A stretch of 64,000 nucleotides of DNA from Natrinema amylolyticum (GCF_020515625.1 NZ_JAIWPJ010000002.1:744001-808000), one strand, 5' to 3'; shown: positions 6,717 to 26,801, counted from the first letter of the stretch. The notes: a model not told the origin generated them from the sequence alone. Made by a program: numbers and translations.

Positions 6717-6732
6717 TTTAGGCCCGCCTAAA
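6717..6732. promoter_or_regulatory. DtxR/Idr-like operator at the ABC ATPase promoter
   Basis: The palindrome TTTAGGCCCGCCTAAA (arms TTTAGG and CCTAAA around CCCG) directly follows a TATA-like TATAAGTA (6708-6715) and ends 34 bp before the ATG of the ABC ATPase. TTAGG...CCTAA is the half-site pattern of DtxR/IdeR-type metal repressors, which have haloarchaeal relatives (Idr/SirR). Binding here would block transcription initiation. The match to a metal-repressor site is by resemblance. Confidence 0.6.
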
Positions 6733-6766
6733 GGGAACGTACGCCGGCAGACGCCGGAGTCGATTC

Positions 6767-7939
6767 ATGGCGAACGGAGATCTACTCACCACGACGGTCG
6801 AGGACGAAGCCCGGGAACCGACGGCCACGGAGACGGTCCTGGAACTCGACGGAATCGCGAAACGCTTCGGCAGCGAGGACGTCATCGGCGACCTCTCGCT
6901 GTCCGTCCGCGACGGTGAGATCCTGACGCTGCTCGGTCCGTCCGGCTGTGGGAAGACCACGACGCTGCGTCTGATCGCCGGCCTCGAGAAGCCCGACGCC
7001 GGACGGGTTCGGCTTCAAGCCGAGACCGTCGCCGGTGACGGTCGGTTCGTCCCGCCGGAGGAACGCGGCGTCGGCGTCGTGTTTCAGGACTTCGCGCTCT
7101 TTCCCCATCTGACCGCTCACGAGAACGTCGCCTTCGGCCTGCAAGAGTGGGACCAAGCCGATCGGGACGCCCGCGTCGGCGAACTCCTCGAGCTCGTCGG
7201 GCTCGCGGACCACGGTGAGGACTACCCGGACGAGCTCTCGGGCGGACAACAACAGCGAATCGCGCTCGCGCGTTCGCTGGCTCCCGAACCGGAGATGCTG
7301 TTGCTCGACGAGCCGTTCTCGAACCTCGACGTGGATCTGCGCGTCGAGATGCGCGAGGAGGTCCGACGGATCATCAAGGAGACGGGCGTCACCGCGATTT
7401 CCGTCACGCACGATCAGGAGGAGGCGCTGTCGATCTCCGACCGGGTCGCCGTGATGAACGACGGCGATATCGAACAGATCGACACCCCCCAGCAGGTCTT
7501 TCAGCAGCCCGAGTCGCGGTTCGTCGCTGGCTTCCTCGGTCACGCCAGTTTCCTCTCGGGCGAGGTCCACGGCGATCACGTCGACACTGCGCTCGGTCGC
7601 GTGCTCCGCGACGACGTCCACGGACTGGCCCACCAGTACGACGGGAGCGTCGTCGACCTGCTAGTGCGCCCGGACGACGTAACGGCCGCTCCCGCCGAGG
7701 GGTCGGAAGCCGACGGCCGCGTCGTCTACCGACGCTATCTCGGCCCGACGGTCCTCTATCGGGTGGAACTCGACGGCGGCGAAACCATCGAGTGCATGCA
7801 CAACCACTCCGACCGGATCGACCTTGACGAGCGCGTCGCCGTCCGCGTCACCGCCGACCACGAACTCGCGTGGTTCCCCGCCGACCACCGCGAGGACGCG
7901 GATGCGGACGGCGACGCGGTCCCCGCCGGCGCGGACTGA
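6767..7939 (+). CDS. ABC transporter ATP-binding protein, iron/polyamine-type (FbpC/PotA-like)
   Basis: A 390-residue nucleotide-binding subunit. Walker A GPSGCGKTT (about 57-65), Q-loop VVFQDFALFPHL, signature LSGGQQQR (about 160), Walker B MLLLDEP and the H-loop SVTHDQEEALSISD are all intact. The C-terminal 120 residues form a TOBE/OB-type domain (DLLVRPDDVTAAPAEG), as in FbpC, PotA and CysA. No permease or binding protein gene adjoins it, which is odd for an importer. The DtxR-like palindrome on its promoter favours ferric iron as substrate (inference). Alternatives are spermidine, sulfate or thiamine import. Confidence 0.85.
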   Translation: MANGDLLTTTVEDEAREPTATETVLELDGIAKRFGSEDVIGDLSLSVRDGEILTLLGPSGCGKTTTLRLIAGLEKPDAGRVRLQAETVAGDGRFVPPEERGVGVVFQDFALFPHLTAHENVAFGLQEWDQADRDARVGELLELVGLADHGEDYPDELSGGQQQRIALARSLAPEPEMLLLDEPFSNLDVDLRVEMREEVRRIIKETGVTAISVTHDQEEALSISDRVAVMNDGDIEQIDTPQQVFQQPESRFVAGFLGHASFLSGEVHGDHVDTALGRVLRDDVHGLAHQYDGSVVDLLVRPDDVTAAPAEGSEADGRVVYRRYLGPTVLYRVELDGGETIECMHNHSDRIDLDERVAVRVTADHELAWFPADHREDADADGDAVPAGAD

Positions 7940-22167: not shown

Positions 22168-23943
22168 TTACTGTCTGACCCGAAGCCGGCCGTGATCGTC
22201 GTATCGGAACCCGGCGGCTTCGAACGCTCCCTTCGCCGCGCGGACGTCGACCTCGCCCTCCGAGCCCAGGAACGGCGTTTCGGGATCTCTCCCGTCCCAC
22301 TCGAGACTTTCGGGCACCCATTCGTCGGTGACTGCAGTCGCGACGGGACGGGCGTGACCGTGGAATATCTCGTCGACCAACCACTCTTTGTCGAGTAACT
22401 GCGCGAGTACCCGCCGGAACCGGTAGTTGCTAAACGGTGCGTCGCGGGTGTTGAATCCCAGACAGTAAAACGACCACGACGACGACTCGAGCAACTGTAC
22501 GTCGTTGGACGTGTCGACACCGCCGATATCGGAGGGGCCGAGCGGGAGGCTCGTCACGTCGGCGTCGTCGTTCGCGACGACCTGTGCCGCCGTGTCGCCG
22601 CTCGGATGGATCTCGATAGGACACTCGTCGACGGTCGGTGCCGGGAGATCGACGGTCGGGCGACGCGTGAAGTGGTCGTCGAACCGCTCGAGCGTCAGCT
22701 GGGTCCCCTCGGTCCGACCGGCGAACTGGAAGGGGCCGCTCCCGATCGGCGGAACGTTGTTCGTGACGACGGCCTCCGTGGTTCCCTGGGCGATGCTGGG
22801 GCCGCCGGGTCCCATGACGTCGGTCGCCCGATCACGCCAGATATGAGCGGGAAGTATCGGTACGAGAAGCGCACGCTCGCCGACCGCCGGCGACGTTTCG
22901 ACCGTGAGTTCGACGCGGTGGCCGTGGCGGATATCGACCGATTTGACGGCGTCGACCTGTCCCCGATACAGCGGTGCTGGCGAGGCCGTATCGTGATCGC
23001 CCAGCGAGGTATCCTGGAGGAACTGATACGTGAACTTGACGTCTTCGGCGCTCAACGGCTCGCCGTCGTGGAACTCACAACCGTCCCGGAGAGAGATGTC
23101 GACCGTTCGGCCGTCCCATTCCCACGACTCCGCGAGCCACGGCTCGATCGCCTCGTCACCGTTCTGCGTCGCCAGCGAGTCGTACAGGAGATCGGTGATC
23201 GTTCCGCGATGACGGTAGTCGGTCGCGATCGGATTGAGATTCTCCGTCGGCCTGGCGTCAGTGTGGGCGACTCGGAGCGCATCGACGCCGTCGGCCGGGT
23301 CGAGACCGAGATAGCCGTGGCGCGTCGCGAGATGGCCCTCGCTCCAGCCGTCGAACCGGTCCGTCCTGGCGACCCGGTGCTCCTCGGGGACGCAGATCGG
23401 AACGAACGGCTGCTCGGTCGCGATCGCCTCGAGCATCGCCGTGACGGCTTTCCGTCTATCGTCACCCTCGGCGTTGCGCTGGTCCTCGAGGAGTGCATCG
23501 ATGTTCTGGTTGCTGAACCCGAAGGGGTTCTGCCAGCCAGATTCGTCGATATACCGCGAGTACAACGCCTCGTAGAGGAAGTCGGGATCGGCCCCGCCCG
23601 GATGGCGTCCGATACAGATCTCGAAATCGTGGTCGTACAGTACCGCTCGACGGAACTCGATGTCGGACCGAAGGTCGATGGAAACGTCGACCCCGACGGC
23701 CGTGAGGTTCTCCTCGAGATGACGTGCGATTCGGACGGACTGTCTGTCCGCGTCCGCCGGGACCGTCGTGATCGTCACGGAGAGCTGTTGGATGTCGTCC
23801 GACCTGACGATATTCCGGACCTGGCGAAGACAGCCGCTGCTCGAGACCGTCAGTCCGGCTGTCGCTGCCAACATGGCACGGCGACCGAGGGACCCGCGGT
23901 CACCACGACTCTCTCCGTTTGGGGCGGCCCGTCTCCTGTTCAT
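22168..23943 (-). CDS. Family-5 solute-binding lipoprotein with circularly permuted order (copy 1)
   Basis: A 591-residue Tat lipoprotein (LGRRAMLAATAG, lipobox SSSGC near residue 38). Residues about 52-210 match the part that is normally C-terminal in SBP_bac_5 proteins: LSVTITTVPADADRQSVRIA, a GVDVSIDLR strand, GGADPDFLYEALYSRY, NIDALLEDQRNAEGDDRRKA and FVPICVPEEHRVARTDRFDG. From about residue 220 comes the usual N-terminal half (LNPIATDYRHRGTITDLLYD, LAESWEWDGRTVDISLRDG, FHDGEPLSAEDVKFTYQFL, VPPIGSGPFQFAG), ending with AKGAFEAAGFRYDDHGRL. It should bind a peptide-like or metal ligand outside the cell. No permease or ATPase gene is adjacent. It has its own promoter at 23975-23988. Confidence 0.85.
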   Translation of the reverse strand: MNRRRAAPNGESRGDRGSLGRRAMLAATAGLTVSSSGCLRQVRNIVRSDDIQQLSVTITTVPADADRQSVRIARHLEENLTAVGVDVSIDLRSDIEFRRAVLYDHDFEICIGRHPGGADPDFLYEALYSRYIDESGWQNPFGFSNQNIDALLEDQRNAEGDDRRKAVTAMLEAIATEQPFVPICVPEEHRVARTDRFDGWSEGHLATRHGYLGLDPADGVDALRVAHTDARPTENLNPIATDYRHRGTITDLLYDSLATQNGDEAIEPWLAESWEWDGRTVDISLRDGCEFHDGEPLSAEDVKFTYQFLQDTSLGDHDTASPAPLYRGQVDAVKSVDIRHGHRVELTVETSPAVGERALLVPILPAHIWRDRATDVMGPGGPSIAQGTTEAVVTNNVPPIGSGPFQFAGRTEGTQLTLERFDDHFTRRPTVDLPAPTVDECPIEIHPSGDTAAQVVANDDADVTSLPLGPSDIGGVDTSNDVQLLESSSWSFYCLGFNTRDAPFSNYRFRRVLAQLLDKEWLVDEIFHGHARPVATAVTDEWVPESLEWDGRDPETPFLGSEGEVDVRAAKGAFEAAGFRYDDHGRLRVRQ

Positions 23944-23974
23944 TTCGTTCGCTTATCATACTTGAAGAGCCACG

Positions 23975-23988
23975 ATATAACAGTATTG
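23975..23988 (-). promoter_or_regulatory. Promoter of solute-binding protein gene copy 1
   Basis: Read on the minus strand it is CAATACTGTTATAT, 32 nt upstream of the ATG. The same element with one change (CAATATTGTTATAT) precedes the second copy at 31 nt. TTATAT is the likely TATA box. The spacing predicts a leaderless transcript. Confidence 0.6.
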
Positions 23989-24099
23989 TGCTCTTCCTAG
24001 CTGGCAGGATTGCTCCACAACACTGTGTGAGACGGGTGTTCTGGGCCGTATCTCCGAGTCCGGTGGTCACTACCACCGGTATTCCTGACTCGATCGCAA

Positions 24100-24963
24100 C
24101 TACTCACTTCGATCCAACCACGGTATCCGGTCCTCGACCTCTCGGAGCCGTTCGTCGAGTAGGTCGGAGACTGGCCAGCGACCGACGAGTCTGTCCGAGA
24201 GAACGACACAGAGGGCCGCGAGAAGCATTCCGGCGATGACGTCGATCCCCCAGTGGATTCCGAGAAACATCGTCGAAATCGCGACGCTGGCCGCCAGCAC
24301 GACCGCGACGGGGAACCACTTCGGAAACGTCGAGCGCGTTATCGCTGCGAACGTCGCGACGGTCGCCGAGAGCGAGGTGTGAAGCGACGGGAAGACGTTG
24401 GTGTTGCTGTTGACCTCGCGGGTGAGGTATTGATACTGTGGATTGGTATCGAACAGCATCGTTTCCGCGACTTCGGCGGGCATCACGTTTCGGGGGCCGT
24501 ACGCGATGACGAAGATGTAAAGGACGAGTCCGATTACGTAGTTGAGCGCGTACGCGGTCAGTAACCGACGGAACATTCGCGTATCGGCCAGCGTAAAGTA
24601 CGCGATAACCGGAAAGATGAGCAAAAAGACGTAGCCGTAGACGTAGACCGACGAGAAGTACGCCGTCGTCTCCGGGGTCGCGATCGACTGAAAGAGCAGG
24701 ATGAACTCCCCCTCGATATTGTAGAAACTCGAGGTGAGATGAAATCCGATATCTCGGGAGAGCCGCGGTGCGCGCTGTCTGGCGAACCGATTGATCAGCA
24801 AGACGACGAGCAAGACGGCGATAGCGGGTGCTGACGTTTTGAGTCGGGCTCGCCACTCCGATCGCGTCTGTACGAGGCGCTCTCGGCCGATAAAGAGAAC
24901 TACCGAGATCGGGAGGAGGATCCCGGTCACGACGACGAGTTGAATCAGCACGTCGGCGAGCAT
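24100..24963 (-). CDS. PAP2_3 (Aur1/inositolphosphotransferase-like) membrane protein
   Basis: A 287-residue protein with about seven transmembrane helices. The PAP2 motifs C2 and C3 are present as NVFPSLHTSLSATVATFA and GIHWGIDVIAGMLLA, giving the catalytic His pair and Asp. The KxxxxxxRP C1 motif of classical phosphatases is absent, as in the Aur1/Ipt1-like branch. That branch transfers head groups between lipids or hydrolyses lipid phosphates. The GGAG ribosome-binding site overlaps the stop of the upstream solute-binding protein gene (5 bp apart), so the two are coupled. The substrate is unknown. Confidence 0.82.
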   Translation of the reverse strand: MLADVLIQLVVVTGILLPISVVLFIGRERLVQTRSEWRARLKTSAPAIAVLLVVLLINRFARQRAPRLSRDIGFHLTSSFYNIEGEFILLFQSIATPETTAYFSSVYVYGYVFLLIFPVIAYFTLADTRMFRRLLTAYALNYVIGLVLYIFVIAYGPRNVMPAEVAETMLFDTNPQYQYLTREVNSNTNVFPSLHTSLSATVATFAAITRSTFPKWFPVAVVLAASVAISTMFLGIHWGIDVIAGMLLAALCVVLSDRLVGRWPVSDLLDERLREVEDRIPWLDRSE

Positions 24964-24968
24964 CGCTC

Positions 24969-26771
24969 CTAATAGCCCCCAAGCAGTCGCCCGTTATCAT
25001 CGTATCGGAACCCGGCTCGCTCGAACGCCACTTTCGCGGCTTCGACGTTGAGATCGCCATCAGTGCCGGCGAACGGCGTCACTGGATCGTCACCGCTCCA
25101 CTCGAGGCTCCCGGGGACCCACTCGTCGGTCACCGGCGTTGCGACGGGCGTCGCCTTCTCGTAGAACACGTCCGTCGCGATCGCCTCCTTGTCGAGTAAC
25201 TGCGTGACCGCCCTGCGAACGTGGGGGTTGCTGAAGGGCGCATTTCGGACGTTGAATCCGAGATGATAGAACGCTCGCGACGGGGACCGGAGATGCTCGA
25301 GGTCCGGCGAGTCGGGAATCGTGGGCACCGAGTGGGCATTGAGCATCGTCGCCGTGACGTCTGCCCCGCCGTCCTCGACGCGAGTGATCGACGAGTTGCT
25401 CGCGGGATCGACGGAGAACTGCACTTCCTCGACCGTCGGTTCGGGGAGTTCGACGTCGTCCCGAAGCGTAAAGTGCTCCTCGAAGCGCTGGAGGACGAGG
25501 GACTCGTCTTCAGAGCGACTATCGAACTGGAACGGGCCGCTACCGACGGGCGGGATGTTGTTTCCGGAGACGACGGACCACCGCCCCTGCGGTGCAGTGA
25601 AATCGCCGCCCGTCGCGTACTGATCGATCAGTTCGAGCCAGACGTGTCTGGGCAGAATCGGCACAGTAAACGCCCGCTCGACGGTCTCTCGACCGCCCGT
25701 CACGGTGACCGTGAGCTCGCGGTCGTCGTCGACCGTCACTTCCTCGATTACGTCGGCGTGGCCCCGATACCGCGGTGCCGGTGACGGGACCGGGGCCCGT
25801 CCCCACGACGTGTCGCTGAGGAACTTATAGGTGAAGGCGACGTCCTCGGCGGTCACGGGTTCGCCGTCGTGGAACTGACACGCCTCTCGAAGCGTGATCG
25901 TTGCCGTCCGCATCGGCACTCCATCTGCTGTCTCGGAGTCCGAATCCGATGTCACTTCGGCGAACTCCCACGACTCGGCGAGCCACGGTTTGACGTCGCC
26001 CTCGTGTTCGGTCCCCAAGGAGTCGTAGAGCAGATCGATCGTCGTCCCGCGGTTCCGGAGCGTCGCCGAGAGCGGGTTGAGGTTCCGAGTCATTCGGCTA
26101 TCGGTCACGAGTGCGTGCAGCCGGTCGACACCGTCGGCCGGTTCGAGACCGAGATAACCGTGGCGGGTCGCGAGGTTCCCCCCGCTCCAGCCGTCGAACC
26201 GATTCGCGCGGGCGACGCGATGCTCCTCGGGAATACAGATCGGGTCGAACGGTTTCGCCCGTGCCAGTCCGGTCAGGACGGCCCGGACGTGTCGCTCGCG
26301 TTCGTCGCCGTCGGTTCGCCGCTGATTCTCGAGATGCGTATCGAAGGCCATGTTGGTGAACCCGAAGGGGTTCTGCCAGCCGGCCTCGTTCGCGTACGTG
26401 GAGTGGAGAGCCTCGTAGAGGAAGTCGGGATCGTAGCCGGCGGGATGGAGCCCGACGTAACAGTCGAAGTTGTGGTCGATCAGAACGGCCTCCAGTAACT
26501 CCGATCGCGACCGCATATCCAACGAGACGTCGACACCGACTTTCTCGAGGTTCGCCTCGAGCCGGCGGGCGATCCGGACGTTCTGTCGATCGGCATCCGC
26601 GGGGACCGTCGTGATGGACAGCGAGAATTGCTCGTCTTCGCCCTGATCGACGACGCTCTGAACGCGGTCGATACAGCCGCTCGTCGTGAGGGCCGCGCCG
26701 GTCACACCGGCGGCCAGAAACGAGCGTCTGCTCACGCCGTCGTCGTCAGGCGGGGAGGGGTTCCAATTCAT
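24969..26771 (-). CDS. Family-5 solute-binding lipoprotein with circularly permuted order (copy 2)
   Basis: A 600-residue paralogue of the 22168 gene. The start is MNWNPSPPDDDG, with Tat motif SRRSFLAAGVTGAAL and lipobox TTSGC. The first about 200 residues after the lipobox again match the normal C-terminal segment (LSITTVPADADRQNVRIARR, GYDPDFLYEALHSTYANEAG, PFDPICIPEEHRVARANRFD). The normal N-terminal half follows (LNPLSATLRNRGTTIDLLYD, LAESWEF, FHDGEPVTAEDVAFTYKFL, IPPVGSGPFQFDS), ending with AKVAFERAGFRYDDNGRL. An insertion of about 15 acidic residues interrupts the ESWEF...TITLREA region. It forms an operon with the PAP2_3 gene. An alternative GTG start at 26786 would add five residues. 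Confidence 0.85.
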   Translation of the reverse strand: MNWNPSPPDDDGVSRRSFLAAGVTGAALTTSGCIDRVQSVVDQGEDEQFSLSITTVPADADRQNVRIARRLEANLEKVGVDVSLDMRSRSELLEAVLIDHNFDCYVGLHPAGYDPDFLYEALHSTYANEAGWQNPFGFTNMAFDTHLENQRRTDGDERERHVRAVLTGLARAKPFDPICIPEEHRVARANRFDGWSGGNLATRHGYLGLEPADGVDRLHALVTDSRMTRNLNPLSATLRNRGTTIDLLYDSLGTEHEGDVKPWLAESWEFAEVTSDSDSETADGVPMRTATITLREACQFHDGEPVTAEDVAFTYKFLSDTSWGRAPVPSPAPRYRGHADVIEEVTVDDDRELTVTVTGGRETVERAFTVPILPRHVWLELIDQYATGGDFTAPQGRWSVVSGNNIPPVGSGPFQFDSRSEDESLVLQRFEEHFTLRDDVELPEPTVEEVQFSVDPASNSSITRVEDGGADVTATMLNAHSVPTIPDSPDLEHLRSPSRAFYHLGFNVRNAPFSNPHVRRAVTQLLDKEAIATDVFYEKATPVATPVTDEWVPGSLEWSGDDPVTPFAGTDGDLNVEAAKVAFERAGFRYDDNGRLLGGY

Positions 26772-26801
26772 ACCGTTATGTAACACCCATTCTCATCTGA
26801 T

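Follow-up and report, generated by a model that had tools for sequence, protein, structure and literature searches.

The locus described here raises the question of whether a solute-binding protein of family 5 (SBP5) can carry its parts in exchanged order and still be a member of that family. Few families of prokaryotic nutrient receptors are as large as SBP5, in which the order of the parts has been taken as fixed. The window that we analysed is a 64,000-nt stretch of the 4.7-Mb genome of the haloarchaeon Natrinema amylolyticum. An earlier note on this DNA had proposed that two of its genes, P0001 and P0002, encode circularly permuted SBP5 lipoproteins.

On the minus strand, the locus comprises P0002 (26786-24969), a gene encoding a PAP2-superfamily membrane protein (24963-24100; Pfam PAP2_3, E 3.7e-15) that starts 5 bases past the P0002 stop codon, and P0001 (23943-22168). 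Both lipoprotein ORFs are intact: P0001 encodes 591 residues from an ATG start and P0002 encodes 605 residues from a GTG start. The span first given for the pair, 22168-26771, holds at its lower end; its upper end is an internal ATG at residue 6 of P0002, and the GTG start places the end at 26786. The two proteins are 52% identical and belong to the same subfamily, annotated here as group A. According to their translations, each begins with a twin-arginine (Tat-type) signal peptide and a lipobox ending in Cys38: RRSFLA...TSGC38 in P0002 (26673-26786, minus strand; a Pfam TAT_signal match, E 0.057, is weak and below the cut-off) and GRRAMLA...SSGC38 in P0001 (23830-23943, minus strand). There follow some 150 residues that are C-terminal in canonical SBP5 proteins (P0002 residues 54-206, 26169-26627; P0001 residues 53-205, 23329-23787; both minus strand) and then the normally N-terminal two thirds (P0002 residues 217-605, 24972-26138; P0001 residues 222-591, 22171-23280; both minus strand). 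In DppA numbering, residues ~350-507 come first and are followed by residues 1-347. Both proteins end just past an AKxAFExAGFRYDDxGRL element, which is exactly where the normal C-terminal segment would start, as had been claimed.

The Pfam model SBP_bac_5 (PF00496) matched each native protein in two out-of-order stretches, with scores above the curated cut-off of 32.4 bits (P0001, 156.2 bits; P0002, 167.8 bits). The larger stretch aligned residues 266-584 of P0001 with model positions 2-283 and residues 265-599 of P0002 with positions 2-284. Neither native protein could be aligned collinearly over the full length of the model. By contrast, the rearranged proteins each gave a single continuous match, to positions 2-362 for P0001 (169.9 bits) and 2-360 for P0002 (180.6 bits). 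As collinearity was obtained only after rearrangement, in line with the prediction of the earlier note, we classified the two proteins as a permuted variant and not as ordinary members. Once rearranged, they are homologous over their full length to the DppA-OppA-AppA-NikA proteins (cluster C), including the motifs LNP, LAESWE, FHDGEP.TAEDV and GSGPF. A full-chain HMM built from 11 canonical SBP5 proteins yielded two out-of-order domains for the native order (160.2 and 41.8 bits in P0001; 146.9 and 41.5 bits in P0002) and one domain for the rearranged order (212.8 and 199.5 bits, respectively). When the moved part was shuffled 100 times, the best domain reached at most 165.3 bits for P0001 and 147.8 bits for P0002. 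Three canonical proteins put through the same rearrangement lost their continuous match.

Searched alone, the first 228 residues matched SBP_bac_5 weakly (P0001, positions 287-362, E 0.015; P0002, positions 281-360, E 0.002), as might be expected if the N-terminal 160 residues were an unrelated or merely similar domain added to a C-terminally truncated SBP5. However, the moved part alone scored 49 bits in P0002 and 48.7 bits in P0001 against a C-part HMM derived from canonical proteins only (E ~3e-12 for 100,000 sequences), compared with at most 2.6 bits for 200 shuffles of that part. An added domain is also at odds with the continuous match obtained on rearrangement, with the 72.7% identity between the moved part of a permuted relative, L229, and the C-terminal part of its canonical orthologue, L240, and with the prediction of P0002 as one confident structural unit, described below. 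We consider this explanation highly improbable. P0001 and P0002 are circular permutants of SBP5: both segments are homologous to those of canonical proteins, their order is exchanged, the old termini are joined, and no duplicate segment is left over. The reordering is complete, involving neither truncation nor duplication, and it is present in both paralogues, as first proposed. Their identity and common subfamily support the inheritance of one shared event, so they do not count as two independent cases.

According to an AlphaFold2 model computed from 85 aligned sequences, P0002 adopts a single compact fold (pLDDT 86.6, pTM 0.85), with pLDDT values below 50 only at residues 1-49 and 282-287. 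Using VIA-align, residues 217-605 were aligned to residues 1-328 of NikZ, 18-357 of AppA and 1-347 of DppA with Z-scores of 20-22 (DppA, Z 20), a match to the fold of cluster C across the two thirds that are N-terminal in SBP5. This structural match covers residues ~217-605, the moved segment being placed by the sequence HMMs and the confidence of the whole model. The model of a permuted protein from another subfamily, group E, had a pLDDT of 87.7, and its residues 244-658 matched AppA 17-358 (Z 23.4). Among the matching solved structures that were inspected, all had the canonical order and none contained a permuted chain. The normal fold is apparently kept in the permuted chain, and, as the earlier note expected, the model shows one SBP5-like fold whose termini have moved to the new site. 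In such a fold, a short linker would bridge the old termini, both of which lie in lobe I, and the new termini would lie in domain III, directly past the AxxxLxEAGY helix. Unlike in canonical proteins, the C-terminal third would thus lead the chain, and the signal peptide and lipid anchor would be attached to domain III, not to lobe I. As the fold is apparently kept, permuted SBP5 proteins should still close on a ligand in the manner of any Venus-flytrap binding protein, and we predict that they bind ligands.

Permuted SBP5 proteins are widespread. In the N. amylolyticum genome, 10 SBP5 genes were found, 4 of which are permuted (P0001, P0002, L004 and L005); the latter two adjoin dpp-type permeases. 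When 292 genomes of the same class were searched with P0002, alignments among the matches listed crossed the junction at about residue 216 in many genera, with E-values down to ~1e-66 and better at the top of the table. We then assigned the order of the SBP5 ORFs in the fetched loci using separate N-part and C-part HMMs. The outcome was bimodal: among 284 ORFs, 162 were permuted, 112 were canonical, 10 had the N part only and none was ambiguous, numbers that refer to ORFs and not to species because some loci were fetched repeatedly. The permuted order occurs in haloarchaea, in archaea that share the window's phylum but not its class (L131, L135 and L138; possibly from the methanogen side), in Alpha- and Gammaproteobacteria, and in spirochaete and actinobacterial metagenome-assembled genomes (MAGs). 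Among the matches listed, the permuted members include those of Halomonas socia, of two MAGs recorded as Spirochaetaceae and Micromonosporaceae, and of other Alpha- and Gammaproteobacteria. Permuted genes are carried on plasmids in Nitratireductor, Ketogulonicigenium, Neorhizobium, Maritalea, Roseomonas and Microvirga. A Nitratireductor protein, WP_113156578.1, is one of the bacterial members of group D. NCBIfam models matched permuted members partially and far below their cut-offs, and the best Pfam stretch of these members breaks off midway through the model. Two-piece tblastn matches, such as those in Streptomyces, were left out of the permuted count, since order is disregarded when pieces are joined, and a candidate from Cytobacillus (L103) proved to have the canonical order. 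One of the archaeal proteins, L131, carries a C-terminal PGF motif and a membrane helix at residues ~530-588, and may therefore be anchored at the opposite end from the lipoprotein forms.

This distribution also bears on whether the reordering could be an assembly or sequencing artefact or the product of a broken gene. The gene of one group C relative (genome G163) is split in the linker, and the sequence there carries CTGTCTCTTATACACAT and an N, resembling a library adapter. Against this stand uninterrupted ORFs and relatives of full length in clearly more than 100 genomes, including single-contig chromosomes, and the conservation that flanks the junction on both sides, such that the probability of an artefact is negligible. 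As for the G163 gene itself (L259/L273), it is interrupted by CTGTCTCTTATACACATN, most likely a sequencing-library adapter left in the assembly.

Two haloarchaea carry the two orders at the same locus. The permuted L276 and the canonical L277 (genomes G054 and G075, respectively) occupy the same operon, consisting of an hpt-like phosphoribosyltransferase gene, the SBP gene, dppB, dppC, dppD and dppF. Identity between their SBPs is 81% for the signal peptide and 72.7% for each of the N and C parts, whose order is swapped, and the upstream, internal and downstream DNA blocks are each 70-76% identical. Because the signal peptide did not move, the rearrangement lies inside the mature coding region. 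In several further genomes, hpt is found upstream of SBP genes of either order.

Most likely, the part of the gene that encodes the mature protein was duplicated in tandem and in frame downstream of the signal peptide, yielding SP-N-C-N-C, after which the first N part and the last C part were lost. Among the 284 classified ORFs, no partly duplicated intermediate of the SP-N-C-N-C type was found, so we infer this route. A C-part match on both sides of the N part was detected in 1 of the 284 ORFs, a canonical protein of a Lachnospiraceae member (L193), in which residues 47-116, ahead of the N part, gave a weak second match of 20.9 bits. This match could be due to chance or be a duplication remnant.

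The cut points differ between subfamilies. Proteins of groups A and D end past AGY...DGRL, and those of group E end shortly past the AELLEE helix. Group C proteins end before this helix and carry it at the new N-terminus, and those of group B retain a stretch beyond it. The breaks are thus clustered in domain III yet not identical, consistent with separate events.

For phylogenetic trees, the sequences were rearranged and each of the two parts was aligned on its own. The maximum-likelihood tree of 59 proteins required 8 order changes, well supported branches made 7 of these unavoidable, and none of 200 bootstrap trees of this set could be explained by a single change. On this tree, the order changed at least 7-8 times. 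A second tree, of 57 proteins from groups C and E with an outgroup, required 5 changes. The L131/L135 group, group C and group E fell apart from groups A, B and D. With respect to the latter, the 59-protein tree placed the group A event separately from that of groups B and D, and an AU test found a single A+B+D clade tenable (p-AU 0.196); these three groups may represent one event. In group C, six canonical rows are nested inside permuted ones and may reflect reversion, gain and loss being indistinguishable at this point of the tree.

Could one ancient permutation, passed on by vertical descent or by gene transfer, account for these data, with the apparent repeats arising from tree error or reversions? 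The tenable A+B+D clade and the nested canonical rows of group C would be compatible with such a history. However, uniting all permuted rows in one clade was rejected (p-AU 7.6e-62), as was uniting those of group E (p-AU 1.1e-4), although these p-values are somewhat optimistic, the clades having been chosen with the first trees already in view. When the N part and the C part were used separately, the resulting trees still required 7 and 5 changes, respectively, and in both the nearest row to the canonical L240 was the permuted L089. The cut points also argue against a single origin, the helix present at the new N-terminus in group C being absent there in group E. A single ancient event is accordingly very unlikely, and we favour a history in which permutation has happened, or been reversed, several times within SBP5. 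That the family has been permuted and that its order has changed repeatedly are, taken together, conclusions in which we have high confidence. More tentatively, and with somewhat less than even expectation, we suggest that SBP5 permutation is both recurrent and reversible, that one hot spot in domain III has been cut in both directions between living orthologues of the same operon, and that the moved anchor was selected for altered docking on the permease or membrane.

Natural circular permutants are known in other families, such as saposin-like plant proteases and DNA methyltransferases, and usually arise by duplication and deletion. A 2006 survey by Weiner and Bornberg-Bauer reportedly covers circular permutation in multidomain proteins. 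Like these permutants, the SBP5 proteins apparently keep their fold despite the reordered sequence. Unlike them, they offer before-and-after orthologues at the same locus, at 73% identity, and repeated changes in archaea and bacteria. Periplasmic binding proteins and sensors have also been permuted or fitted with inserted domains in the laboratory, and tolerate new termini or insertions (PMC4974565, PMC11213343). As described there, those proteins are laboratory constructs, whereas the permuted SBP5 proteins are natural, widespread and found within transport operons. PMC2588589, in which the survey by Weiner and Bornberg-Bauer is cited, lists the Pfam family and cites a paper on circular permutation, and goes no further. 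A literature search covering open-licence papers found no description of a permuted SBP5 protein, in agreement with the earlier note, which knew of no such family. Natural permutation and laboratory-permuted binding proteins are already known; the widespread, recurrent permutation of SBP5 is apparently undescribed. Before-and-after orthologues at one locus make it possible to test how permutations originate in real genomes, how often they revert, whether new termini alter folding, anchoring or docking, and why one site is used repeatedly. Permuted SBP5 proteins are also natural templates for sensors based on permuted binding proteins.

The genomic context of group A differs from that of the other permuted subfamilies. 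Of the 48 group A ORFs, 40 have a PAP2-superfamily gene directly downstream, compared with no such gene at the loci of the remaining 226 ORFs. Annotated examples occur in Natronorubrum bangense (SBP-PAP2-SBP-PAP2) and Haloferax gibbonsii, and the group A locus L108 carries this partner. No homologue of dppB, dppC or hpt was found in the 64-kb window or in the group A loci L108, L109 and L180, and the only dppD-like match in the window is a distant ORF (6722-7936). A permease gene next to group A may have been lost or may never have existed, and the group may have become coupled to the PAP2-superfamily membrane protein in an envelope system, a proposal made with low confidence from gene neighbourhood. 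The lipoprotein might capture a solute released or processed by the PAP2 protein, or pass its ligand to a permease encoded elsewhere. Taken further, the missing permease genes and the frequent PAP2 pairing could mean that the proteins of group A no longer take part in transport and act as sensors, or as components of an envelope system built around PAP2. The conserved SBP5 core, together with the Tat lipoprotein signal, points instead to extracellular ligand binding, and it is common for orphan SBPs to share a permease. We regard a loss of the transport role as possible but rather doubtful, and prefer to view group A as binding proteins perhaps coupled in some way to the PAP2 protein.

Permuted members are mostly found in complete dpp-type ABC operons. 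In groups B-E, these operons have the arrangement SBP-dppB-dppC-dppD-dppF in archaea and bacteria, annotated records included. Judged by these operons, the permuted proteins of groups B-E are very likely ordinary binding proteins of dpp-type ABC importers. In groups C and E, an hpt-like phosphoribosyltransferase gene lies directly upstream of SBP-dppBCDF operons containing permuted or canonical SBPs (L276, L277, L280, L281, L282 and L285), which hints that the substrate of these operons may be related to purines or nucleosides.
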